From positions 1-64,000 of the forward strand of contig NZ_MSKL01000009.1 of NCBI RefSeq assembly GCF_001937665.1: a stretch of DNA of 64,000 nucleotides, written 5' to 3'. Origin of the DNA: Actinomyces oris (GTDB lineage: Bacteria; Actinomycetota; Actinomycetes; Actinomycetales; Actinomycetaceae). The position numbers were made by a program, and so were the translations under genes. The notes beneath the pieces are model-generated. The model did no database searches. It saw only the letters and a list, made by a program, of their open reading frames with translations, and was not told where the DNA came from. Of this stretch, positions 19,463 to 63,070 are shown piece by piece. Position 1 is the stretch's first letter. Each line of letters opens with the position of its first letter.

Positions 19463-20797
19463 TCAGATGAGCTCGGCCAGGGCACCGCGTACGGCGGCCA
19501 GGCGCTGAGCGGCGATGTTCTCGTCGTAGGGCAGGTGCAGTCCGCGGCACTCAGCGGCCAGCTCGGCCAAGGAGCGGACCTCGGGGAAGCCGCGCGAGGC
19601 GAGCTGGGCGACCTCATCAACAACCGGCGAGCCCGAGGAGCCGGCCCCACCACCACGCAGGTCGACCCACTGACCCAGGCGCCTAGCCGCGCGGTCCAGG
19701 CTGGAGGTGACCGTGTGCAGGGCGTCGTTGAGCTGAGCGACCTGACCGCTCACGGCCCGCAGCACGGGGTCCAGTCCGCGGAAGCCGGACTCGAGCGCCT
19801 CGCACAGGTCCGTCAGGGAGTGCACGGCATCCACCTCGCTGCCGTCAAGGATGGACTGGGCGAAGCGCCCCACCATGAGGGTGAGCAGGCGCATGAGGGC
19901 CACGGAGAAGCGCAGCTCGGTGACCGACTGGTGCAGGACCTTGAGCCGCGAAGGCAGTCCGGTCAGCTCCGATCCCGCGGCCCCTGTGAGCTCGGCGATC
20001 CGCTCGGCGAGCATCTGCGTCTTGGTCTGGGTGCTGTTGCCGACGTCGTGGGAGACCAGCTGACCGATACGACCCACCCGCGCCTCCACCATCCGAGCGG
20101 AGTCGTGAGTGGCCTCCATGGTGGTGATGAGGCGCAGGTACTCGTCGAGCTCGAAGACCAGGGCGTTGGTGTCCTTCTCCATGGCGGCCACCGTGTTGAG
20201 GATCCGGGCCACGGCGCCCAGGCTCTCGGGAGCGACCGCCGGCACGCGCACCCCGGAGTTGACCAGGGCGGCCACCTCACGCGGCAGGGTCGCCAGCGTC
20301 ATGTCGTGCAACGAGGAGAAGCCCAGGGCCGTCAGCTCCGCGGCCAGCTCGCGACCACCGAACTCGCCGAGCTGGTGGCGCGAGGCGCCCCGGGCCTCGA
20401 GATCGCGCTCCTTGGCACGCACCCGGCGGTAGGCCTCCTCGACCTTGTCCCGGGTCACGGCGTCCATCGGTTTGATCCGCACTGAGAGGTACCCCTGACG
20501 CAGCGGCACGATCGTGGCGAAGACCCGGTAGTCCAGACCGTCCACCGCGCGGTTGGTGATGTAGCCGCAGGCCGGACGCTGGGACTGCAGATCGTCCCAG
20601 ATGAGGCGGAAGAGGCCGGCCGGCATGTCCAGGTGACGAATGATGTTGTGCGGAGCCCCGATGAGACGTTCACGCGAGTAGCGCGAGAGCGTATCGAATG
20701 TCCGGTTGGTGTTCTTAATAACACCTTTGAGGTCCGTGGTGGAAAAGAAGATGTCCTGTGGATCGAACAAGCGCTCGTACCCGACCTGCGATTCCAT
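19463..20797 (-). CDS. Aer-type PAS protein without a signalling output domain, copy 1
   Basis: The 444-residue soluble protein has an N-terminal PAS domain (about 15-115) of the Aer type: FFSTTDLKGVIKNTNRTF, IGAPHNIIRHLDMPAGLF and LDYRVFATIVPL. In E. coli Aer this PAS fold binds FAD and reports redox state. The remaining 320 residues are predicted helical with no methyl-accepting, kinase, GGDEF or transmembrane part. It is paralogous to the gene at 20967-22319 along its whole length. A strong AAGGAG site precedes the ATG at 20797. Actinomyces is not known to swim, so a chemotaxis role is unlikely. Function unknown; a cytoplasmic redox sensor is a guess. Confidence 0.75.
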   Translation of the reverse strand: MESQVGYERLFDPQDIFFSTTDLKGVIKNTNRTFDTLSRYSRERLIGAPHNIIRHLDMPAGLFRLIWDDLQSQRPACGYITNRAVDGLDYRVFATIVPLRQGYLSVRIKPMDAVTRDKVEEAYRRVRAKERDLEARGASRHQLGEFGGRELAAELTALGFSSLHDMTLATLPREVAALVNSGVRVPAVAPESLGAVARILNTVAAMEKDTNALVFELDEYLRLITTMEATHDSARMVEARVGRIGQLVSHDVGNSTQTKTQMLAERIAELTGAAGSELTGLPSRLKVLHQSVTELRFSVALMRLLTLMVGRFAQSILDGSEVDAVHSLTDLCEALESGFRGLDPVLRAVSGQVAQLNDALHTVTSSLDRAARRLGQWVDLRGGGAGSSGSPVVDEVAQLASRGFPEVRSLAELAAECRGLHLPYDENIAAQRLAAVRGALAELI

Positions 20798-20966: not shown

Positions 20967-22319
20967 CTACTCCCCCAGGCGGCTCAGACTCTCGCGGACC
21001 GTCGCCACCCGCTCACGGATGACGGACTCGTCCAGGGTCACGACGACGCCGCGAGCCTTGGCGGCCAGCTCGGCCAGCGAGGCCGTCTCCGGGAAGCCCT
21101 GCTCACCCACGGCGATGGCCTCCTGCAGGGCGGCCTCGGCGTCGACACCCTCGACGAGAGCCTGGGCCCCCTCATCCTGAAGCGCGCGGATCCAGCGCTG
21201 GAAGGGCCGCTTGACACGGTCGAGGTTGCTGACCACGGAGCGAAGATCGCCCTCCAGGCGCTCGGCCAGGTTCGCCGCCTCCTGGCAGGAGGGCACGAGC
21301 TCCTCCAGGTCGGAGAGCATCGCCTCGGCGAGGTCACCGATGGCGTCAGCGGACTCCCCCTCCTGACCGTCCAGGACGGCGGCGGCGAAGATGCCGGCCA
21401 TGAGGGTGTGCAGACGCATCATCGAGCTGCGGAAGCGCACCTCGGAGGCCGCCTCGTAGAGCGCCACCAGGGAGGAGTTGAGCTGACGGAGCACCTCGAC
21501 GGCCTGAGCCCCGCGCTCCTTGACGCGCTCGGAGACAGTGGGGACGGAGGACTCGCCGTCGGGACTGGTCACCTCCTCCATGAGGGAGCCCACACGGTTG
21601 GCCCGGTCAATGACCGAGCGCACTCCGCCGGCCCAGGAGCCCAGGCCGTTGATGAGCTCCTGGTACTCGCCGAGCTGGTAGATGAGCTCGTCGGTGTCCC
21701 GCTCGATCGCCCCGACGGCCTGAAGGACGGCGAACATGGGATCGTCCGACTCGGCGCGCGGCGGCACTCGGACGCCCTCGACGACCAGCAGCGCCAGCTC
21801 GCGCGGGAGGGCGGCCCGGGCGAAGTTGTGCAGGTCGTGGTACTGGAGCCTCGCCAGCTCCTCAGTCAGCAGCGACGCCCCGTGCTCGGCGACCTCCCGG
21901 CGTCCGTGGCCCTCCTCGGCGTAGGCGCGCTCGGCGGCCCGGACGCGGGCGTAGATCTCCTTGACGGGGGTGAACATGGCGTGGTTGGTCGGGCGCACAC
22001 GCACGGACAGGTAGCCGTCGGTCAGCGGGGCGATCGTGGCGAAGACCCAGTAGTCCAACCCGTCCTTGGCCCGATTGAGCACGTAGACGCAGGAGGAGCG
22101 CCCCTGCTCGAGCTCATCCCACATGAGCTTGAAGGCTCCAGCGGGCATATCATCATGCCGAATGATGTTGTGCGGAGAGCCGACGAGCTCCTCGGCGCTA
22201 TGACGGGACAGCGAATCGAAGACCCGGTTCGTTCTGCGAATGACGCCCTTGGTATCCGTCGTTGAGAAGAACAGGTCCTCGGCACCGAAGCGGCGCTCGT
22301 TGCCATCGACGTATTCCAT
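20967..22319 (-). CDS. Aer-type PAS protein without a signalling output domain, copy 2
   Basis: The 450-residue paralogue of the downstream gene at 19463-20797 has PAS motifs FFSTTDTKGVIRRTNRVF, VGSPHNIIRHDDMPAGAF and LDYWVFATIAPL. A helical region shares RELALLVVEGVRVP, EVRFRSSMMRLHTLM and GFPETASLAELAAKARG with copy 1. The start at 22319 follows AGGAG. A 169-bp AT-rich gap separates the copies, so each may have its own promoter. Confidence 0.75.
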   Translation of the reverse strand: MEYVDGNERRFGAEDLFFSTTDTKGVIRRTNRVFDSLSRHSAEELVGSPHNIIRHDDMPAGAFKLMWDELEQGRSSCVYVLNRAKDGLDYWVFATIAPLTDGYLSVRVRPTNHAMFTPVKEIYARVRAAERAYAEEGHGRREVAEHGASLLTEELARLQYHDLHNFARAALPRELALLVVEGVRVPPRAESDDPMFAVLQAVGAIERDTDELIYQLGEYQELINGLGSWAGGVRSVIDRANRVGSLMEEVTSPDGESSVPTVSERVKERGAQAVEVLRQLNSSLVALYEAASEVRFRSSMMRLHTLMAGIFAAAVLDGQEGESADAIGDLAEAMLSDLEELVPSCQEAANLAERLEGDLRSVVSNLDRVKRPFQRWIRALQDEGAQALVEGVDAEAALQEAIAVGEQGFPETASLAELAAKARGVVVTLDESVIRERVATVRESLSRLGE

Positions 22320-39523: not shown

Positions 39524-40834
39524 TCACCCGGTGAGCATGCTCATGCCGACTGAGGCGACGACCGGAGCGATCCCCAGGATGACGAAGGCCGGCAGGTGGC
39601 AGGCGCCCAGCGGCAGGACGAGGCGCACCGCCAGGCGCTCGGCGGCCTCCTCATCGCGAGCGTGCCGCCCCGCGCGCAGGCTCGCCGCCGTCGCCGCCAG
39701 GAGGGCCGCCGGCGAGGCCCCGTCCTCCCAGCCCGGGCGCAGGCAGGACTCCAGGCGGGAGCGCCGCGCCCGCCACTGATCGTCGTCGGGCGCCTGCCAG
39801 GCCTCCTCCCACGGGGCGCCCAGCAGCAGGGCCCGCCCCACGACGCCGGCCCCCTCCTCCTCCAGGGCCTCGCCCAAGGCGGTCAGCACCCCGGGCACCG
39901 AGGCCCCGGCACTCAGTGCGGCGGCAGCCAGATCCAGGACCAGGGCCTCATCGACGACGTCGCCGTCAGCCGTCGCCGCGCGTACCAGGCGCCTGGTCAC
40001 CAGGTGCCCCACCACCATGAGCACGATGCCGAGCGCCCCCACGGCGCTACCGACGCCGCCGTCGAGCAGGAGGGCGGCGGGGTCGGCACCCACGAGCATT
40101 CCCAGTCCCAGGCCGACCACGGGCAGGCAGGCCAGGAGCCGCGCGGTGGTACGGGGGCCGGCCAGGGCGGCCCGACGGGAGGCCTCGGCGTGACCGGACT
40201 CGGCGACCCCGCCCGCCACGGTCTGGAGGATGTCAGCCAGGGGTGCCCCCAGGGCGGTCGACAGGCGGCAGGAGGCGATGGCGCCCGGCACCCCGGCGGC
40301 GGTGGCCCGCCGCTGCCGGGTCCGCCGTCCCCTCGGGGGCGGGCGCCAGTACAGGCGCCCGTCGCTCCATCGGGGCAGCCACGAGTCGTGCTGGAGGTCC
40401 GCGAGCGCGCGCAGCACGGGTGGGACGCCGTCCTCATCGGGCTCGGCGCCCTCGGTCAGGCCGGCGCGTTGGCAGGCGCGCACCCAGGCCCGTTGCGGGG
40501 TCGCACCGGCGCGCAGGAGGCTGGCGACCTCGGTGAGCAGCAGACCGAGGTCCGGTTCGGGCGCCCCGGAGCGTCGGGAGCGCAGTGCGGAGAGAACCGC
40601 CTGCGGGGTCGATGCTCGCTCCTCGACCGCGGGGGCGCCCGTGGTCCAGCTGCGGGGCAGGCCGCGGCGGGCCGGCAGCAGGAGCACGGCGGCGGCCAGG
40701 GCGACCAGGACCGCCGCGATCCAGGCGCCCGGCACCGGTCCGCTCGCGGAGCCGGCCAGGTGCCCGGCCGGGGGCAGGAGGGAGACGGGCCCCCTCAGGC
40801 AGGTCATGCCGGTCATGCTGGCCATACCGGTCAT
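39524..40834 (-). CDS. Type II secretion system F-domain protein (TadB/TadC-like)
   Basis: The 436-residue inner-membrane protein has an F domain (LGLLLTEVASLLRAGATPQRAWVRA) and a second unit (LDLAAAALSAGASVPGVLTAL). It looks like a single gene covering the roles of TadB and TadC, the platform on which Flp pili are built. Hydrophobic segments lie near residues 35-55, 225-245, 250-275 and at the C-terminus. Its ATG overlaps the tadA stop (ATGA). No flp pilin, tadE or prepilin peptidase gene follows, unlike complete actinobacterial tad loci. Confidence 0.83.
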   Translation of the reverse strand: MTGMASMTGMTCLRGPVSLLPPAGHLAGSASGPVPGAWIAAVLVALAAAVLLLPARRGLPRSWTTGAPAVEERASTPQAVLSALRSRRSGAPEPDLGLLLTEVASLLRAGATPQRAWVRACQRAGLTEGAEPDEDGVPPVLRALADLQHDSWLPRWSDGRLYWRPPPRGRRTRQRRATAAGVPGAIASCRLSTALGAPLADILQTVAGGVAESGHAEASRRAALAGPRTTARLLACLPVVGLGLGMLVGADPAALLLDGGVGSAVGALGIVLMVVGHLVTRRLVRAATADGDVVDEALVLDLAAAALSAGASVPGVLTALGEALEEEGAGVVGRALLLGAPWEEAWQAPDDDQWRARRSRLESCLRPGWEDGASPAALLAATAASLRAGRHARDEEAAERLAVRLVLPLGACHLPAFVILGIAPVVASVGMSMLTG

Positions 40835-42090
40835 GTGGGTCTCCTCTCCCCCGGCCCGGGCAGTCCGTCGAGGCCGGTGTGGGCAAAGACCTGCGGGCCG
40901 ATCCGCTCTCGCAGCGCCTCCGCGGCCGGGCCGGGGCTGAGGCGGCCGTCGTCGGCCACGCGGAGGGCCTCCTCGCAGACAAGGACCGCTCCGGCCGGGG
41001 TCGTCTCGCGCCGCAGCACGCCGACGGAGGCCACGAAGCGACGCGCCCCGGCGGTGCCGGACTGTCGGCGCAGGTGGACGACGGCGTCGAGCGCGCTGGC
41101 CGCCTGGGCGGCGACGGCCGCCTCATCGAGTCCCGCGAGCGCCCCCAGGGCGGTCAGGCGGGCGGGGACGTCGGCGGGAGAGTTGGCGTGGAGGGTGGCC
41201 CAGCCGCCCTCGTGCCCGGTGTTGAGGGCGGTGAGGACGTCGCGCACCTCGGGGCCGCGGCACTCGCCCAGGACGATCCGGTCGGGCCGCATGCGCAGGG
41301 CGGTACGCACCAGGGAGGTCATGGAGACCGCCCCGACGCCCTGGACGTTGGCGCCGCGCTCCTGGAGGTGGACGACATGGGGGTGGTGGGGGCGCAGCTC
41401 GCTGGCCTCCTCGATGCACACGATGCGTTCGGTGACCGGGACGAGTCCGAGCAGGGCGGCCAGGAGGGTGGTCTTGCCGGTGCCGGTGGCGCCGGTGACC
41501 AGGCAGCTGGCGCGGCCGGTCACGAGGGCGGCCAGGACCTCGTCGAGGCCGGGGGCGACGGTGCCGGCGGCGGTGAGCTCGTCCAGGGTGAAGCCACGGC
41601 GGCGCTTGGTGCGCAGGCTGATGAGGGTGCCGTCGGCGCTCAGGGGCGGCAGGACCGCGTTGAGGCGGGTGCCGTCGGGCAGGGTGGCGTCGACGACGGG
41701 GCAGGCGTCGTCGAGGCGCTTGTGGGCGGAGGCGGCCATGCGCACGGCCAGGGCCCGCACCTCGGGCTCGTCCATGGCGGCTGCGGGGACGGGTTCGAGG
41801 CCGTGTCCCCGGTCGATCCAGGTGCGCCCGCCGCTGACGAGGACGTCGGTGACGCCGTCGGTCTCGATGAGGGGCTGGAGGAGTGGCCCGGCGCCGTCGA
41901 CGTCGGCGCGCACCCGCTGCCCGAGACGCGCCATCCCCACCTGTCCGGTGGCGGGGGCGGCGGCGTCGTTGAGGGCCTCATCCAGGCCCACGCCGCGTGC
42001 GAGGGCGCTGCGGACGCGGGCGAGCTCGGGGCCGTCGCCTCCCGCGACCCCACCGGGAACGCCGGGCTGATCGGGACTCACCGGGACCAT
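40831..42090 (-). CDS. tadA: Tad secretion ATPase (TadA/CpaF family)
   Basis: The 419-residue hexameric ATPase powers pilus assembly or secretion. It shows GVTDVLVSGGRTWIDRG, the Walker A GATGTGKTTLLAALL, the Asp box RIVCIEEASELRP, Walker B RIVLGECRGPEVRDVLTALNTGHEGG and the His box WATLHANSP. It overlaps ssd by 13 nt and the F-domain gene by 4 nt, so the three are translated together. Confidence 0.93.
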   Translation of the reverse strand: MVPVSPDQPGVPGGVAGGDGPELARVRSALARGVGLDEALNDAAAPATGQVGMARLGQRVRADVDGAGPLLQPLIETDGVTDVLVSGGRTWIDRGHGLEPVPAAAMDEPEVRALAVRMAASAHKRLDDACPVVDATLPDGTRLNAVLPPLSADGTLISLRTKRRRGFTLDELTAAGTVAPGLDEVLAALVTGRASCLVTGATGTGKTTLLAALLGLVPVTERIVCIEEASELRPHHPHVVHLQERGANVQGVGAVSMTSLVRTALRMRPDRIVLGECRGPEVRDVLTALNTGHEGGWATLHANSPADVPARLTALGALAGLDEAAVAAQAASALDAVVHLRRQSGTAGARRFVASVGVLRRETTPAGAVLVCEEALRVADDGRLSPGPAAEALRERIGPQVFAHTGLDGLPGPGERRPT

Positions 42091-43238
42091 GGCTGCCTCC
42101 TGGACTGATTCGTTAACTGATTCGTTGACGGATTCGGTGGCCGGCTCGTTGACTGGTTCCCCGTCTCCCTGGGTCCTCGGACGGCTACCGCATCAGCCGG
42201 CTCGGGGGTGGGTCCGGCGGCGCTCCTCGCCCGGTTCGGTGCCGCAGCGCCAGGGAGCCGGGGCAGCAGCTCCCGGGCCAGGGCGCTCGCGGCGCGCCGG
42301 ATGGCCGAGCGGGCCCGAACCGGGTCCTCCCCGAGGGCCAGCCGCTTGGCCAGGACCCGGTCGGTGGGAACCTGCCCCAGGACCGGGCAGCCGGTGATGA
42401 GCTCGAGGTCCTCGGCGAGGACGTCCTCGCCCACCTGGCGCACCACGAGCCAGACCGGCACCCCCGCAGCGGTGTCGGCGGCTTCGGTACCGCCGGGCAC
42501 CGCACCCCGCAGTCGTGAGACGATGCTCTCGGCGGCGATCGCCGAGCGCAGGTCGAGTCCGGTGACGATCAGGACCCGGGCTCCCGGGGGCGGGAGCGCC
42601 CCTCGGGGCAGGTCCACCAGGACGACGTCGTGCTCGGCCCGCATCGCCTCCAGGACCGCCTCCACGCAGGGCCGGGGCCCTCCGCGCACGTCCCCGGTGA
42701 GGACCGGCATGGCGTGCCACACGGGCAGGGCCCCGACGAGGTGGCCGGGCCGGAAGGCCGACTCATCGGCCGGCAGGTCCGCCCAGCGCAGCCCGGTCAG
42801 GACGCTCTCCCCGCACAGGAGGTCCAGGCCGCCGGTGGGGTCGAGGTCCATCATCGCCACCCGCCTGCCCGCTCGGCCCAGCGCCCACGCCAGGTGCAGC
42901 AGCAGGACGCTGGCCCCCAGGCCCCCGCGGGCACCGGTGACGGCCAGGACCTGGGCGACGTGGCCCGAGCGCTCTGTCCCCTCACACGCCCTGTCCTCCG
43001 TCGCCCGCGCATCTCCACCGGACTGCACAGGCCGGCCGGCGGAGGGCCTCAGGGGAGGGAAGGAGACATCCCGACCGTCCCACACCTGCGTGCGCCCCGG
43101 CGCCGCCTCGTCCCCGGGCTCCGCCACTGCCGGAATGGTCAGTGTCTCCATCTCCTCCGTCTGCTCCGCCTGCTCCACCTGCCATGTGCCGTCCCCCGCG
43201 GGCACGCGCACCTCCCTCACAGGCATCCTCACCGACAT
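42078..43238 (-). CDS. ssd: CpaE/TadZ-like ParA-type ATPase (Ssd homologue)
   Basis: The 386-residue protein of the septum-site/secretion CpaE-like group has a deviant Walker A VTGARGGLGASVLLLHLAWALG and AMMDLDPTGGLDLLCGE. The region around VVLVDLPRGALPPPGARVLIVTGLD matches Walker B. In Mycobacterium the homologue Ssd affects septum formation; in Tad systems TadZ places the pilus machine in the cell. I chose the ATG at 43238; the ATG at 43256 is possible. It is divergent from the HAD gene, as in other actinobacteria. Confidence 0.85.
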   Translation of the reverse strand: MSVRMPVREVRVPAGDGTWQVEQAEQTEEMETLTIPAVAEPGDEAAPGRTQVWDGRDVSFPPLRPSAGRPVQSGGDARATEDRACEGTERSGHVAQVLAVTGARGGLGASVLLLHLAWALGRAGRRVAMMDLDPTGGLDLLCGESVLTGLRWADLPADESAFRPGHLVGALPVWHAMPVLTGDVRGGPRPCVEAVLEAMRAEHDVVLVDLPRGALPPPGARVLIVTGLDLRSAIAAESIVSRLRGAVPGGTEAADTAAGVPVWLVVRQVGEDVLAEDLELITGCPVLGQVPTDRVLAKRLALGEDPVRARSAIRRAASALARELLPRLPGAAAPNRARSAAGPTPEPADAVAVRGPRETGNQSTSRPPNPSTNQLTNQSRRQPWSR

Positions 43239-43566
43239 CGTCTCCCTCTCCCACATGTCTCCACCGTCCTGCCGTGTCTTCCCCGCGGCCTGCCGGCCGT
43301 CTCCACGGCTCCCCGACCGGCGCCCCGCACGGCGGTACCGCGGGGACCGCAGCACCGCGGGCGGCTCCCCACCAGGGTGCGGGCCCGCCCGCGGCTGCGC
43401 CCATCGACGTCGTCGGGCCTGTGGAGACGGGTTGCAGAAACGGGCCTGTGGCCCCGCGCCCGCTGCAGCCGGTCACAGCCGGCCACGGAACCGCCGGCGA
43501 TGACGGAGGCCACTGCGGGGCTGACACGCCTGACACCGGGGTCCGGCTCGTGATGTGATGGGGGGC

Positions 43567-45698: not shown

Positions 45699-46637
45699 GT
45701 GAGTGACTCCCCCTCCCATCACGCCCCGGGCTCCGGCCCGCCGCCCGCGACCCCTGGCGCATCGGGCCGGCCACCGCGCAGTCGCCGACCCGACTACGTG
45801 CTCACCGCCGTCGTCGGAGTCATCTTCGCCCTGGGCGCCTCCACCCTTCTGGGCCTGGCCACCGACCCGGCCTCGACGCTGCGCACCGGCCTGCTGCTCG
45901 GCGCGCTCCTGCTGTTCTCCTCGGCCGCCGCCGTCCTGTTCGCCAGCCGCTCCTCGCTGGGCGCGCTCGCCACCGGGCTGACCGCGCTGACCGCCCAGTC
46001 GATGGTCTTCCTGGCCCCCATTCACGCGGCCTCCTTGACCGAGCCCTGGCTACAGCGGCTCGTCAGCACCGGTTTCATGCTCGTCCTGGCGGGCCTGTGG
46101 CTGGGCGGCTCCTGGGGGATGCGCCTGGCCCGCCGTGCCGGCCACGCCCAGGGGCACGCCGCCTTCCGTCTGACCCAGGCCGACCGGACCGTGGGCTCCA
46201 CCCCGACGCCACCGCCCTCACGCCGGCGCGCTCATCTCCTGTCCCTGCCCTGGGTCATCGCCGGGCTGGCGCTCGCGGCCCTTCTGCTGCCCCGCGCCTA
46301 CCTGCGAGCAGTCGCCCCCGGTGTCCAGACCGGTCCGCTGCTGCTCGCAGCCGTGCTCATCTCCCTCCTGGCCCTGGCCGCGGCCGGCGCCTCGACGGCC
46401 CGCTCCACCCTCGGTGCGCGCGTCACCGGCCCGGTTCTCATTCTTGCGGCGGTGCCCGCGCTCAGTAACGGTATGATCCCTGGCGGCCATCTGGTCTCCA
46501 GGGTCCTGCCGTACGGCCCGGACGCCATCGTGCTCGCCGCCATCGGCATCGAGCTCATGGCGATCGGCTGGGGAGCACATGTGGCTCGCCGTCAGGGTCG
46601 TGCGAACGCGCTGGCCAGGCTGCGCTCCGGCGTCTGA
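45699..46637 (+). CDS. Eight-TM membrane protein, unknown function
   Basis: The 312-residue protein has a Ser/Pro/Arg-rich N-terminus of 30 residues and about eight hydrophobic segments. A loop of about 45 residues in the middle carries GSTPTPPPSRRR. The first four segments, with FASRSSLGALATG, resemble the four C-terminal segments of the next protein (FMISRSSLGAFVVG), so the two share a domain. Start GTG 45699 (VSDSPSHH). No enzymatic motif seen. Confidence 0.75.
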   Translation: MSDSPSHHAPGSGPPPATPGASGRPPRSRRPDYVLTAVVGVIFALGASTLLGLATDPASTLRTGLLLGALLLFSSAAAVLFASRSSLGALATGLTALTAQSMVFLAPIHAASLTEPWLQRLVSTGFMLVLAGLWLGGSWGMRLARRAGHAQGHAAFRLTQADRTVGSTPTPPPSRRRAHLLSLPWVIAGLALAALLLPRAYLRAVAPGVQTGPLLLAAVLISLLALAAAGASTARSTLGARVTGPVLILAAVPALSNGMIPGGHLVSRVLPYGPDAIVLAAIGIELMAIGWGAHVARRQGRANALARLRSGV

Positions 46638-46730
46638 GGGTCCCATACCCGACTCCATGTCCTGGGGACGACCGGCCCCTTCCGGCATCCCCATCCCTAC
46701 TACTACCGTGTGCATGCGTAAGGAGACCTC

Positions 46731-49589
46731 GTGAGCACCGACAACACAGATCGCACCGCACCGCAGGCACCCGTCCCCTCCGAGGACGTCGCCCCATCCT
46801 CCCCGACGGCGTCGACACCCACCGCACGGGCAATGGCCACGGACCCCCGCCCGGGAGAGGCGACGGTCACCAAGGCTGATGAGGCCCTCGTCCCGGCCTC
46901 CCTCAAGGACCTCGCCGGCAAGGCCACCCAGGTCTCCCCGGCCGCCTCCAGCGAGTCTCAGGCAACGGTGGCTGCGGAGGGTGAGGTGGTTCCGGTCAGC
47001 ACCTCCATCGACGCCGATGACACCGATACGGCCGATGATGCGGCCATGGACAAGACTGAGGAGGAGGAGACTGCGGCCGCGGACGACAAGGACGACACCC
47101 TGAACCTCCGCGAGCAGGCGTCCTTCCCCGGTGCTGCCGGGAGCCAGGCCGCCGAGGCCGTCAGGAGCGCTGCCGTGGGCGCCACGAGCGCTGTCACGAG
47201 CGCAGCCCGGGTGGTCGCCGACACGGCCACTGACGCATCCGATGACGCAGCCGAGAAGACCGGCGGCGCCCTCCCGGCCGACCGCCCTGCCCAGGCCCCG
47301 TTGCGCCCCGCCGCCCCCTCCCCCCACCCGGTGGCGGCTCAGGCGGCGCCAACGCCGTCTGAGTCCTTCACCCCTGACGACGCCGCCGTCGCGGAGACAG
47401 TCGTCGGGACCGCTGCGGCCGATGGCATGCCGCCGTCGATTCCTCCGTCCTCGGGGCCCGGTGAGGTGGAGGAGGAGCCGGTGCAGGTCGCCGCGGAGGC
47501 CACGACGCCCACGGCTCCCGAGCCCGCCCGGGCCGAGGAGCATCGGACGGCTGCCGTCACGGCCACAACGGCCACCACACCGGCCTCAGCACCCATCAGC
47601 TCCGCCGTCTCCGCCCCGCAGGCGCCGTCGCCCGCGCCGGTGGACGACGAGGAGGAGACGCCGGCCGAGACAGTCAGCAGCGAGCCGGTCGTCCGGACGA
47701 CCGCCGCATCCGCCACGGTGCCGACGGCGGCCGCGGCAGCGGGCGCACAGGGACACGCGCCCGTGGCCGACACCGCCGAGGACTCCGTGGAATCGGAGGA
47801 TCTGACCGAGGCCGAGGACCTCGACTCCCCCGAGGCGGAGGCCGACCTCACTCCCACGACCCCGGCCATCCCCACCCCCGAGTCCGGCTCCCCTGCCGTG
47901 AGGGCGGTGCCCGTCTCCGTGACCACCGGTGCCGCCAGAGTCTCGGACGGGGCCGCGGGCGCCTCCGCCCAGACCCCCTCCGCTGCAACCGACGCAACGG
48001 ATGCCGCAGTGGGCGAGGACGACACTGACGACACTGACACCAGCATCGACGACATCGATGGCATCGACGACGAGCTCGTCGAGGAAGCCGGTGAGGTTGA
48101 CGAGGCCGATCAGGAGGCCGAGGACGACTTCGAGGAGACTGCGCAGCCGGCAGCCGTCCCGACGCCGGCCTCCGCAGCCCCCGCCGCGCAGACCTGGACG
48201 CCGACTCCGCGGGCCTCCGGCTCTCAGACGCCTGCCGGCGCACCCGACGTCGATGATGTTGATGACGCTGGTGACGGCTTCGCACTGCTCAGCGAGGCCA
48301 CCACCGCCTCGGCGGCCTTCGCGGCGTCCTCAGCACACTCAGCACCTTCGGCGGGCGCAGCGACACCGGCCACCCCGTCGGCGGGCTCACCGGAGCTCAC
48401 ATCCTCGCCCCGGCCCAAGGCCGAGCCAGCGGCGCCGGCCTCATCGCCGTCAGCGGCCTCGGCGCCATCGGTGACCTCATCGCCGTCACCGACCGAGCCG
48501 GAGGCCACGGCGCCGGTGAACGCTGCGACGGACAACCGCCCCTCGGCCCCGTCCTGGCCGGCGACCCCCGCGGCTCAGCTGGCCCGGACGGGCTCTGCCG
48601 CAAGCGCCCCCTCAACGCGTTCAACCGAGTCGACGCCCTCCGTCCGCCCCGCCTTCCCCGCCGGAGCCTCGACCTCCGCCCCCACAACGGAGGGGACGGG
48701 AGGGGCGGCCCGGGTCGCCTCGTCCCCGTACACCGGGCTCTCCGGCTACCGCCCCGAGGCGCCCGCCAACACGCCGACCCCCGCCCCGGCGGAGACGACG
48801 GCGCAGCCCGAGTGGGCGCCGTCGACGCCGTCAACCCAGTCAGCTCCCACCGCCACGAGTGCCAGGGACTACCGCCCGACGCCGGCGGGCTCGCCGTCGG
48901 CCCCCTCCCCGCAGCAGACGCCCGCCTGGCCCTCAGCAGCCCCCACCGCCCGGGGACTGTCCGCGAGCGCCGATGCCGGGGAGAGCGACGACCCGGAGGA
49001 GCGCGGCCGTTCGCGGGCCCGGCAGGCCGCCCTGGCCATGACCGGCGCCGGCGAGGACGACGACTCCATCCTCCTCAAGGGCGCCAGCGTGCTGAGCGCC
49101 CCGAGCTCGCGCGCCGAGACCCACTGGGCCGGGGTGCTCGTCGCCATCGTCCTGTTCCCCCTGGCCTGGTTCCTCGTGCACGACGGCGCCGCCACCCTGA
49201 CCGGCGGCAACCCCTCGGCCTGGCCGTCGGCCGCCTCCCCGATGGGCGCGCTGGAGATCCTGGGCGGGACCGCGGCCTGCGCCGCCGCCCTGTTCATGAT
49301 CTCGCGCTCCTCACTGGGGGCCTTCGTCGTCGGCGCCATCAGTGCGGTCATCGGCCTGCCCTTCGTCCTCATGCCGGGGGTCACCAAGTCGATCCTCGGG
49401 TCCACGGTCGAACGGCTTCAGGCCCACTCCGACCTGGGGAGGGCCCTGTCCACCTATGTCATGGACGACGGCCTCTCCGGCCGCTTCATCCTCATGGGCG
49501 TGCTCACGATCATGGTCGCCGTCGTCGCCCACCTGGCGCGCCGGGCCGGACAACGCAACCGCGACGACGACCGCGGCCTGCGTGACTGA
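46731..49589 (+). CDS. Very large Ala/Pro/Thr/Glu-rich protein with C-terminal four-TM domain
   Basis: The 952-residue protein starts at GTG 46731 behind AAGGAG. Residues 1 to about 790 are low-complexity, made mainly of Ala, Pro, Thr, Ser, Glu and Asp, with acidic patches (e.g. EDDTDDTDTSIDDIDGIDDE) and no signal peptide. Four membrane segments follow (from about residue 795), related to the first half of the preceding protein. With no signal peptide the disordered part probably stays in the cytoplasm. Codon use matches the neighbours. The gene overlaps azlC by 8 nt. Function unknown. Confidence 0.75.
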   Translation: MSTDNTDRTAPQAPVPSEDVAPSSPTASTPTARAMATDPRPGEATVTKADEALVPASLKDLAGKATQVSPAASSESQATVAAEGEVVPVSTSIDADDTDTADDAAMDKTEEEETAAADDKDDTLNLREQASFPGAAGSQAAEAVRSAAVGATSAVTSAARVVADTATDASDDAAEKTGGALPADRPAQAPLRPAAPSPHPVAAQAAPTPSESFTPDDAAVAETVVGTAAADGMPPSIPPSSGPGEVEEEPVQVAAEATTPTAPEPARAEEHRTAAVTATTATTPASAPISSAVSAPQAPSPAPVDDEEETPAETVSSEPVVRTTAASATVPTAAAAAGAQGHAPVADTAEDSVESEDLTEAEDLDSPEAEADLTPTTPAIPTPESGSPAVRAVPVSVTTGAARVSDGAAGASAQTPSAATDATDAAVGEDDTDDTDTSIDDIDGIDDELVEEAGEVDEADQEAEDDFEETAQPAAVPTPASAAPAAQTWTPTPRASGSQTPAGAPDVDDVDDAGDGFALLSEATTASAAFAASSAHSAPSAGAATPATPSAGSPELTSSPRPKAEPAAPASSPSAASAPSVTSSPSPTEPEATAPVNAATDNRPSAPSWPATPAAQLARTGSAASAPSTRSTESTPSVRPAFPAGASTSAPTTEGTGGAARVASSPYTGLSGYRPEAPANTPTPAPAETTAQPEWAPSTPSTQSAPTATSARDYRPTPAGSPSAPSPQQTPAWPSAAPTARGLSASADAGESDDPEERGRSRARQAALAMTGAGEDDDSILLKGASVLSAPSSRAETHWAGVLVAIVLFPLAWFLVHDGAATLTGGNPSAWPSAASPMGALEILGGTAACAAALFMISRSSLGAFVVGAISAVIGLPFVLMPGVTKSILGSTVERLQAHSDLGRALSTYVMDDGLSGRFILMGVLTIMVAVVAHLARRAGQRNRDDDRGLRD

Positions 49590-50364
49590 GCCCGACGCCG
49601 CCCCGCCGACCGCCGGGACGGGTGCGCCGTCGGTTCGGCGGATGCAGACCCTCGCCGATGCGGCCCGTGATGCGGTCCCCATCGTCGTCGGATACGTGAC
49701 GCTGGGGCTGGCGGCCGGGATGCTGCTGGTCGCCGAGGGCCTGGCCTGGTGGTGGGCGCCGGTGTGGAGCCTGGTCATCTACTCCGGAACCATGCAGATG
49801 CTGCTGGTGCCGCTGGCCGGTGGCGGCGAGCCGCTGGCCGCCATCGCCCTGTCCACCGGTTTCGTCTCGGGCCGGCACGTCTTCTACGGACTGGGCTTCC
49901 CCTTGGAGCGGGTGCGGGGCAGGGCGCTCACCCGCCTCTACTCCGTCCACGCGATCACCGATGAGGTCTACGCGCTGCTGGCGGCGCGCGACCGACGGGC
50001 CATGAGCGGGCGCTACCTGGTGGGTGTGGAGGCGATCAGCCACACCGCCTGGGTGGTGGGCACAACCGTCGGGGCACTGGCCGGAACGGCGCTGGCCTCC
50101 GCGGTGGGTGAGCGCATCGAGCTGCTCGGCTTCGTGCTCACGTCGCTGTTCGTGGTCCTGGCCATCGAGAACTGGCGCAACCACCCCGATATCGGGGTGC
50201 TGTGCGTGGGGCTGGTGGCCGGCGGCATCGGCCTGGCCATGGGTGGTTCGGCGGCGCTGCTGACCGCGCTGGTGACGCTCGCCGTCGGGCTGGTGGGCCT
50301 GTACGCCTGGCGCGCTCGCCAGCCCGGGGAGCCCGGGCCGCAGTCGCGGCGGAGAGCCGGCTGA
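49582..50364 (+). CDS. azlC: AzlC-family branched-chain amino acid exporter subunit
   Basis: The 260-residue membrane protein shows the AzlC pattern AVPIVVGYVTLGLAAGMLLVAEGLAWWWAPVWS, SGTMQMLLVPL and STGFVSGRHVFYGLGFPLERV. With AzlD it would export branched-chain amino acids or analogues. Start GTG 49582 overlaps the previous gene. It is followed directly by azlD (TGATG). Confidence 0.9.
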   Translation: MTEPDAAPPTAGTGAPSVRRMQTLADAARDAVPIVVGYVTLGLAAGMLLVAEGLAWWWAPVWSLVIYSGTMQMLLVPLAGGGEPLAAIALSTGFVSGRHVFYGLGFPLERVRGRALTRLYSVHAITDEVYALLAARDRRAMSGRYLVGVEAISHTAWVVGTTVGALAGTALASAVGERIELLGFVLTSLFVVLAIENWRNHPDIGVLCVGLVAGGIGLAMGGSAALLTALVTLAVGLVGLYAWRARQPGEPGPQSRRRAG

Positions 50365-50687
50365 TGCTCACCAACCCGCAGGTCGCGGTCGCCGTCGCGG
50401 TCGTCGCCGTCATCACCTTCGTGTGCCGGATCGTGCCCTTCGTGCTGCTGCGCGGACGCCAGGACAGTGCGCTGCTGGCCTTCCTGTCCCAGGCGATGCC
50501 GCTGGGGGTCATGATCGTCCTGGTAGCCTACACGCTGGGCGGAGTGAGCCTGTCGCCGTCGAGCTGGCTGCCGGCTGCCGGCGGGATCGGGGCGACGGCG
50601 GGCCTGCACCTGTGGCGGCGCTCCATCGGCCTGTCACTCATCGGCGGCACCGGCGTGTACGTCGCCCTCAGCCTCCTGCTGGGCTGA
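50364..50687 (+). CDS. azlD: AzlD-family transporter subunit
   Basis: The 107-residue protein has four hydrophobic segments including VITFVCRIVPFVLLRG and QAMPLGVMIVLVAYTL, typical of the small AzlD partner of AzlC. Its ATG overlaps the azlC stop by one base. Its end overlaps the convergent TMEM175-type gene by 20 bp. Confidence 0.9.
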   Translation: MLTNPQVAVAVAVVAVITFVCRIVPFVLLRGRQDSALLAFLSQAMPLGVMIVLVAYTLGGVSLSPSSWLPAAGGIGATAGLHLWRRSIGLSLIGGTGVYVALSLLLG

Positions 50688-51462
50688 CCCGCCGCGGGCG
50701 GTGGCCGACCATGTAGAAGACGATGAGGGCCACGTAGGTGACCACGCTCAGCCAGGCGCTGACCAGCCCCAGCAGTGCGGCCAGCGCGTACAGCCACGGC
50801 CCCATCGCGAAGCGCCGGGTCATGGACCGTACCTCCGCCTGCGTCACCTCCGGTCGCAGGCGGCTCCGGTCCCGGATGGACGCGCGCCACAGGGCGTTGA
50901 AGAACATCCCGCCGACCACCATGACCGCCCCGTAGAAGACGGCGCCTGTGCGCTCGTCGTGCCCGGACTCCAGGGACCGGGTGAGCACCGAGGTGGCGAA
51001 GGGCAGGAAGGCGACGTCGAGCAGGAGGAAGAGGTTGCAGATGAGCATCCACTGGTCGACGCTGCGCACTCGCACGAAGATGGCGTGATGGTTGAGCCAG
51101 ACCTGCCCCACCAGGAGGAAGCTGAGCACGAATCCCACGTAGCCGGGCCACAGGGAGGCCAGGGAGCGCAGGAGGCTCCCGCCGCCGTCGGGCAGCTTGA
51201 TCTCCAGGCTCAGCAGGGTGATCGCGATGGCGATGACCCCGTCGCTGAAGGCCTCCAGGCGCCCGGGTGAGACGGGCGCCGACTCACTCTCCCCTGCTGC
51301 GCCGTCGGCCCCGGCGGCGGGCTCCGCCTGGCGAGCCGAGTCGATATCGGTGTCTGCGGCCGCAACATCGGCATTTGCACGACCAGAGGTGTCAGCGCCG
51401 ACGTCGTCGGTGGGATCGTCGGTCGGGCCATCACGCGAGTCATGGTGGCAATGGGTGGTCAT
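50668..51462 (-). CDS. TMEM175-type (DUF1211) membrane protein, putative potassium channel
   Basis: The 264-residue protein has an acidic, Asp/Ala-rich N-terminal stretch of about 65 residues. A six-segment TMEM175 unit starting RLEAFSDGVIAIAITLLSLEIKLP follows. The (R)xxxFSDG motif is the family hallmark; bacterial members conduct potassium. VGQVWLNHHAIFVRV is also typical. GAAGGAG precedes the ATG at 51462. Repeat A copy 2 lies directly upstream. Confidence 0.88.
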   Translation of the reverse strand: MTTHCHHDSRDGPTDDPTDDVGADTSGRANADVAAADTDIDSARQAEPAAGADGAAGESESAPVSPGRLEAFSDGVIAIAITLLSLEIKLPDGGGSLLRSLASLWPGYVGFVLSFLLVGQVWLNHHAIFVRVRSVDQWMLICNLFLLLDVAFLPFATSVLTRSLESGHDERTGAVFYGAVMVVGGMFFNALWRASIRDRSRLRPEVTQAEVRSMTRRFAMGPWLYALAALLGLVSAWLSVVTYVALIVFYMVGHRPRRVSPAGG

Positions 51463-51483
51463 GCCTTCTCCTTTCTTCGCGGT

Positions 51484-51626
51484 TGGGGACATTCTGCGCC
51501 GGTGGGGACATTCCTGCACTGCCGGGGACGTTCGACGCCGTCGGGGACGGGATTCCTGTCCCCGACCGCGCGCCGTGTCCCCGAATGGAACGGAACGCAC
51601 CTGACCGCGTGGAATGTCCCCGCCGG
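51484..51626. repeat. Dispersed intergenic repeat A, copy 2
   Basis: Shares GGGGACATTCTGCGCC at the start, TTCGACGCCGTCGGGGAC in the middle and GAATGTCCCCG at the end with 16117-16262. It lies in the divergent spacer between the TMEM175-type gene and the hydrolase. Confidence 0.75.
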
Positions 51627-62521: not shown

Positions 62522-63070
62522 TCAGTCCTCGACGTGCGCGAGCTCGCGGGCGAAGGCCTCGTGGTTGGTCTGCGAGGACAGGACGAAGCGGATGAGCTCA
62601 AGGCGGCCGACGGCCTCGGGATCGGTGTGGGAGCGCTGTTCGACGGCGCAGGCCCGGGCCACGGCGATCTCGGCGACCTTGGCGATCGGCCAGCCGTAGA
62701 CGCCGGCGGAGACGGCCGGCAGGGCGATGCCGGTGCAGCCGAGCTGGATGGCGAGCTCCAGGGAGTTGTCGAAGCAGGCGCGCAGCAGGGCGGGATCGTC
62801 CTCTCCGGCGTGGCGGTTGGGGCCCACGGTGTGGATGACCCAGGTGGCGGGCAGGTCGAAGCCGGGGGTGGCCACGGCGCGGCCGACCGGCAGGCCGTCG
62901 GGCAGCTCGGTGTCGCGCACCTTCTGGCAGGCGTCAAGCAGGCGGGGGCCGGCGGCGCGGTGAATGGCGCCGTCGACTCCCCCTCCGCCCAGGAGGGTGC
63001 TGTTGGCGGCGTTGACGATGGCGTCGACCTTCTCGGTGGTGATGTCGCCGACGACGGCCTCAATGCGCAT
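62522..63070 (-). CDS. Macrodomain protein (ADP-ribosyl/O-acetyl-ADP-ribose hydrolase)
   Basis: The 182-residue single macrodomain of the YmdB/MacroD type has GDITTEKVDAIVNAANSTLLGGGGVDGAIHRAAG (ligand-binding Asp, NAAN and GGGVDGAIH) and PAVSAGVYGWP. It removes ADP-ribose from modified targets or hydrolyses O-acetyl-ADP-ribose. AAGGAG precedes the ATG at 63070. No ADP-ribosyltransferase or sirtuin gene is adjacent. Confidence 0.93.
   Translation of the reverse strand: MRIEAVVGDITTEKVDAIVNAANSTLLGGGGVDGAIHRAAGPRLLDACQKVRDTELPDGLPVGRAVATPGFDLPATWVIHTVGPNRHAGEDDPALLRACFDNSLELAIQLGCTGIALPAVSAGVYGWPIAKVAEIAVARACAVEQRSHTDPEAVGRLELIRFVLSSQTNHEAFARELAHVED

Follow-up and report, generated by a model that had tools for sequence, protein, structure and literature searches.

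Membrane proteins of bacteria that carry a long disordered tail in the cytoplasm are a familiar kind, and small membrane units arranged as tandem repeats are found in the HdeD / DUF308 proteins. Here, we describe two adjacent plus-strand genes, P1 and P2, in a 64,000-nucleotide stretch of Actinomyces oris DNA (assembly GCF_001937665.1, contig NZ_MSKL01000009.1, positions 1 to 64,000; hereafter, the window). P2 resembles the tailed proteins in that it combines a membrane anchor, a long acidic low-complexity tail, short conserved motifs, and an N terminus predicted to lie inside the cell. It differs from them in that its four-helix membrane domain matches no family convincingly and has a tandem-duplicated copy in the neighboring gene. 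These small tandem units recall those of HdeD / DUF308 proteins, but the P2 domain has no match to the corresponding family, PF03729. Like proteins of Tad/Flp pilus loci, P1 and P2 are neighbors of such genes in most genomes tested; a TadA-like gene is, however, also carried by 20 of 20 relatives without P2. P1 and P2 show no resemblance to the neighboring TadA, TadB, and Ssd proteins that is visible by eye, a judgment with no pairwise comparison behind it. The kind of protein is familiar; the P1/P2 family is not named by the libraries searched.

An earlier sequence-only reading of the window had described a 312-residue membrane protein followed by a 952-residue protein whose terminal membrane domain the first one shares. 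Coordinates, lengths, and layout are as claimed (Table 1), and the relationship extends further than proposed, since profile comparison places two copies of the domain in P1. The P2 domain matched the second half of uncut P1 (97.6% probability, E-value 4.6e-12). With the halves of P1 cut apart, the P2 domain matched the first at 95.1% and the second at 98.0% probability, and the halves matched each other at 98.3%; column-shuffled controls, run in three rounds, gave at most 0.32%. Plain BLAST between P1 and P2 was weak (E-values of 0.007 and 0.02). The profile matches indicate that one membrane unit is present three times across the two genes. The AlphaFold2 model of the P2 domain contains four long helices, the third and fourth of which flank a helical hairpin (predicted local distance difference test score (pLDDT) 83.8; predicted template modeling score 0.76), in agreement with the four transmembrane (TM) segments counted earlier, and the model of P1 contains eight long helices (pLDDT 83.5).

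At 35 of 39 loci, the P2 gene is preceded by a P1 homologue that shares its strand. The four loci without one are G001, at a contig end, the frameshifted G018, and two loci outside Actinomyces, one of which is also near a contig end. With a wider profile, a second unit match closely precedes the P2-type match in six genomes of other genera and families (G101, G111, G243, G254, G265, and G297), which suggests that the pairing of P1 and P2 is old. One of these loci (L143 in G254, from another family) has three tandem unit matches, corresponding to a P1-like double unit and a P2 unit.

The long P2 frame looks truly coding because of the Shine-Dalgarno sequence at its first start, the phase of its insertions and deletions (indels), and its substitution pattern. 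The first start carries AAGGAG 5 nucleotides upstream, within a 21-nucleotide stretch that is identical in all nine complete A. oris-group genes. Indels in the arm, the region that precedes the membrane domain, were divisible by three in 85 of 93 cases between the window and five close relatives; the window sequence is a member of all five pairs, so they are not independent. With the window paired to each of eight relatives, the ratio of nonsynonymous to synonymous substitution rates (dN/dS) of the arm was 0.55–0.69, in low-complexity alignments that are uncertain (arm dS 0.25–0.90 versus domain dS 0.11–0.29). The corresponding dN/dS of the membrane domain was 0.18–0.47. At third codon positions, the proportion of guanine and cytosine (GC) is 0.85 for arm codons and 0.95 for domain codons. 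Third-position GC, dN/dS, and indel phase together reject a spurious long frame in GC-rich DNA. The sequence-only reading had named as its refuting case a long frame that is untranslated, with the TM part alone expressed. The sequence evidence disfavors this case: in the window gene, the region from 120 residues before the domain to 20 residues into it contains three possible start codons, none of which has a Shine-Dalgarno site.

The P2 arm consists of 64% alanine, proline, serine, threonine, and glycine, 16% aspartate and glutamate, and 5% lysine and arginine, for a net charge of −88; tryptophan, phenylalanine, tyrosine, isoleucine, leucine, methionine, valine, and cysteine sum to 11.6%. The acidic patches that had been noted earlier are present, and two were located. 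Among 46 open reading frames (ORFs) picked from the window by a simple script, a set that does not include P1 (which overlaps other long frames), P2 contains the longest hydrophobe-poor run (747 residues); the runner-up, of 150 residues, lies in a doubtful ORF. Of the proposed nearly 800 disordered residues, the low-complexity arm of 785 residues stands, and its disorder is predicted from composition only: in the Uversky plot, the arm falls barely on the disordered side (0.450 versus 0.454), a closeness to the line that we put down to its alanine content. The earlier suggestion that the arm might form a condensate finds no support in its composition. Aromatic residues amount to 1.7%, which provides few stickers, and charge is one-sided (36 lysines and arginines versus 124 aspartates and glutamates) rather than arranged in balanced blocks.

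Across 42 aligned membrane domains, lysine and arginine averaged 1.62 in the N-terminal flank, 1.12 in loop 2-3, and 4.31 in the C-terminal flank, compared with 0.36 in loop 1-2; loop 3-4 averaged 1.33 together with 3.69 acidic residues. The sequence of P2 has no hydrophobic stretch at its N terminus. On this positive-inside pattern, both termini of P2 are predicted to lie inside, which would make the arm cytoplasmic, as the sequence-only reading had held. The same pattern disfavors an extracellular, mucin-like arm.

Arm length is not conserved. Start sites were taken as the first with a good Shine-Dalgarno sequence, so that outside the A. oris group such sequences are present partly by construction. 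In 35 Actinomyces arms, length ranged from 111 to 846 residues with a median of 366; this set leaves out G001, in which a contig end cuts the arm, G018, in which arm and domain lie in different frames, and G047 and G048, which belong to other families. The arm of G029 is probably over-counted by about 40 residues, a better start lying further in. Four Actinomyces homologues have arms of just 111–138 residues. Arms of at least 500 residues occur in a well-supported clade of A. oris and its sisters and once more in another genus (G391). On a tree built without G001 and G167, this long-arm label corresponds to three changes, one of which is G018 with its unsure arm length.

Charge, on the other hand, is kept. 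Net charge was negative in 61 of 63 arms (a set without L091 and L095, at contig ends); in the remaining two, G018 and G167, the frame or the start is unsure. The expectation that orthologues would keep length and charge though not sequence was therefore borne out for charge, failed for length, and held in part for sequence, in which short islands are kept. A comparison of nine A. oris-group proteins showed no variation at 101 of 785 positions in the arm and at 126 of 167 in the membrane domain, and the invariant arm positions are densest at the N terminus, at residues 598–627, and at residues 748–774. An N-terminal start of the type M/V/L-S/T-S/T is found in 48 of the 63 arms.

A further island appears in other Actinomycetaceae. 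The strict motif T-x-V/I-R-R-x-S-L is present in 17 of 48 arms from this family; R-R-x-S-L/I occurs in 22 of 48, versus 0.058 expected from shuffled arms, and a looser form of the motif in 20 of 48, versus 0.536 expected. A DNA pattern of T-x-V-R-R-x-S-L had a single match in each of 9 of 19 genomes, always within the arm of this gene, and none in the genome of the window; a reversed control had one match. The pattern allows valine or isoleucine in the third place and serine codons of the form TCN only, and it misses variants in G031, G020, G338, and G071. In the G018 locus (L042), the arm keeps its N terminus and, with alanine in place of serine, a form of the motif, both in a different frame from the membrane domain; P1 was not found there, and 2.6 Mb lie between this locus and the TadA-like gene. 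The G018 locus has been relocated, and its P2 gene carries a frameshift in that assembly.

Several lines of evidence, namely a coding and constrained arm, conserved islands, retained acidity, the positive-inside pattern, and a P1 homologue upstream at most loci, lead us to favor, tentatively and at somewhat below an even chance, a model of P2 as a cytoplasmic tether or adaptor that is anchored in the membrane. The four-helix domain would serve as the anchor and would probably pack with the two homologous units of its co-oriented neighbor P1. The long acidic, disordered arm would extend into the cytoplasm and may bind a partner through its short islands: the N terminus, the juxtamembrane acidic stretch, and, elsewhere in Actinomycetaceae, T-x-V-R-R-x-S-L. 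Sequence between the islands would act as a spacer of drifting length. The arm may also scaffold envelope enzymes, as the sequence-only reading had suggested. It is tempting to speculate that Actinomycetaceae and nearby families share, as a core feature, a P1-P2 complex of three four-helix units in which the arm is a hub that recruits partners through its islands (in many species, the genome-unique motif), with length tuned by lineage and charge held; we consider this fuller picture doubtful.

Some observations weigh against a tether or adaptor. Constraint on the arm is weak relative to that on the membrane domain, and the arm alignments behind it are uncertain. The Uversky line puts 14 of 58 arms on its folded side, a count that leaves out G018, G167, G001, G125, L090, L091, and L095. 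The R-R-x-S-L motif is found in none of the A. oris-group arms, including that of the window, where the arm is longest, and in none of 15 arms from outside Actinomycetaceae.

A different explanation is nearly as likely: the membrane units of P1 and P2 would be the working part, forming a small complex that perhaps acts on a lipid or small solute, and the arm, nearly neutral, would act as a spacer or entropic bristle whose length rises and falls through in-frame indels. The concentration of invariant residues in the domain fits this explanation, as do the more than sevenfold variation of arm length within one genus, the homologues with the shortest arms, and the restriction of long arms mainly to one clade with three changes on the tree (the unsure G018 among them). 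A neutral spacer accounts less readily for acidity kept in nearly all arms, for conserved islands, and for dN/dS below 1 in all eight pairs. The analyses here do not separate the tether from the neutral spacer.

More doubtful still is a phospho-regulated docking tail, in which a Ser/Thr kinase would modify the threonine or serine of T-x-V-R-R-x-S-L and thereby recruit a phosphopeptide-binding protein to the membrane. The motif is strongly non-random in arms, its DNA pattern occurs nowhere else in the 19 genomes, and basic residues ahead of a serine resemble some kinase sites; any phosphorylation of the motif is something that we infer only. The motif is nevertheless absent from the window's own clade, and the G018 variant, read in another frame, lacks the serine.

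The genes around P1 and P2 bear on the last explanation, in which both proteins are accessory parts of the neighboring Tad/Flp pilus machine or of the Ssd (CpaE/MinD-like) protein. Genes that we take to be TadB-, TadA-, and Ssd/CpaE-like, of Tad/Flp pilus type, lie at 39524–43355 on the minus strand. A HAD gene (plus strand) and a Fic gene (minus strand) separate these genes from P1, and AzlC and AzlD follow P2. A TadA-like ATPase was present in all 60 P2-bearing genomes examined (58 of the 65 profile-positive genomes of the order, described below, plus G002 and G018). In 52 of them it lies within 10 kb of P2; 4 have it at a greater distance on the same contig, and 4 on another contig. In G071, gene order is rearranged and the P2 gene is still beside TadA. 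Against these points, relatives that lack P2 keep the ATPase; it lies 14–40 kb away in three genomes of one family and megabases away in G018; and the neighborhood also contains HAD, Fic, acetyl-CoA-synthetase-like, and other household genes, so that an old gene order can explain the proximity. Because the TadA-like ATPase also occurs in relatives without P2, the proximity probably reflects old shared gene order, and a Tad accessory role is improbable.

The Fic/DOC family protein between HAD and P1 (44537–45610, minus strand; Pfam E-value 3.3e-6) is found at 33 of 39 loci, and a TMEM175-type potassium channel homologue downstream of AzlCD (50668–51600, minus strand; Pfam E-value 6.8e-27) at 8 of 39. 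In other families, the next gene is presumably an acetyl-CoA synthetase or an alpha/beta hydrolase. A GTG in the AzlC frame overlaps the P2 stop by 8 nucleotides, so translation of AzlC is probably coupled to that of P2. AzlC/AzlD was rejected as an essential partner of P2: AzlC was detected at 33 of 39 loci and not at the other 6. The P1 frame stays open upstream of position 45699; the GTG start used there was chosen in the sequence-only reading and agrees with homologues.

Table 1 Features of the P1-P2 locus, in window coordinates.
Feature	Coordinates	Strand	Basis
P1, 312-amino-acid membrane protein	45699..46637	+	ORF; four-helix unit present twice in tandem
P1 first membrane unit, about residues 26-158	45774..46172	+	hhalign against P2 domain profile: 95.1%, E-value 2.9e-8
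P1 second membrane unit, about residues 170-311	46206..46631	+	hhalign against P2 domain profile: 97.6%, E-value 4.6e-12
Shine-Dalgarno sequence AAGGAG	46720..46725	+	Sequence; 5 nucleotides ahead of P2 GTG start
P2, 952 amino acids, low-complexity arm then membrane domain	46731..49589	+	ORF; indel phase, selection
P2 arm, 785 amino acids, acidic, rich in A/P/S/T, probably cytoplasmic and disordered	46731..49085	+	Composition
P2 N-terminal island V-S-T-D-N-T-D-R	46731..46772	+	Conserved in nine A. oris-group proteins
P2 acidic patch 1, residues 94-113	47010..47069	+	Composition
P2 acidic patch 2, residues 428-471	48012..48143	+	Composition
P2 arm island, residues 598-627	48522..48611	+	Conserved in A. 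oris group
P2 juxtamembrane island, residues 748-785, including E-D-D-D-S-I-L-L-K-G-A	48972..49085	+	Residues 748-774 from nine-protein comparison; remainder by eye
P2 four-helix membrane domain, 167 amino acids	49086..49586	+	Genome searches; AlphaFold2
AzlC	49582..50364	+	Pfam AzlC, E-value 1.7e-32; GTG start inferred from sequence

Elsewhere in the window, the minus-strand genes at 19463–20797 and 20967–22319 encode tandem proteins with similar N termini, a pair that we take to be PAS-type sensors. A short minus-strand protein at 62522–63070 begins with what is presumably a macrodomain.

The sequence-only reading had known of no family with this layout; family searches gave no convincing match and fold searches no clear one. 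No NCBIfam family matched any of three proteins at an E-value of 1. In Pfam, the best match of P1 was DUF6163 (E-value 0.37; 11.1 bits versus a cut-off of 27) and that of the P2 domain was DUF5862 (E-value 0.051; 13.9 bits versus 33.3); whole P2 had none. Pfam searches over 39 members gave nothing convincing, the best being DUF7670 (E-value 0.0036, one member), YwiC (E-value 0.0041, three members), and DUF5862 (six members). HdeD / DUF308 did not match the window domain at an E-value of 0.1 and matched one of the 39 members at 0.015. Foldseek found no PDB match to the P1 and P2-domain models at an E-value of 0.001, and the best VIA-align hits in the PDB, with Z scores of 5.1 (root-mean-square deviation (RMSD) 4.9, 75 residues aligned) and 6.1 (RMSD 8.2, 237 aligned), are within noise. 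As judged by titles and the beginnings of abstracts, a description of the P1/P2 family or of the duplicated unit was not found among the papers searched.

The P2 domain is present in all 37 Actinomyces genomes searched, among them that of the window, and in 2 of 22 other genomes of the order (39 of 59 in total). Its closest named relatives, A. oris strains, are 90–93% identical in the domain; those beyond Actinomyces include Ruania and Occultella. A profile search detected the domain in 65 of 396 genomes of the order: 35 from the window's family (the count found, which need not span the whole family), 24 and 2 from two other families, and 4 from a fourth. A wider profile, whose seed included members found by the first, matched 85 of the 396; 8 of these matches are marginal (E-values of 1.1e-5 to 9.5e-4) and are excluded from membership. 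A class-level sample of 296 genomes gave a single match to the domain, in the genome of the window itself; this sample held genomes of the same order and is not a measure of spread beyond it. Both order surveys and the class sample used a loose first look, with the 9–12 best candidates scored per genome.

P1 and P2 thus represent a membrane protein family, conserved in Actinomyces and its relatives, that is unnamed in the libraries searched. Arm length differs sevenfold among its members, with acidity and a few islands retained, which makes the family a natural series for the role of a disordered arm, and its species range offers ready-made arm-length variants for experiments.

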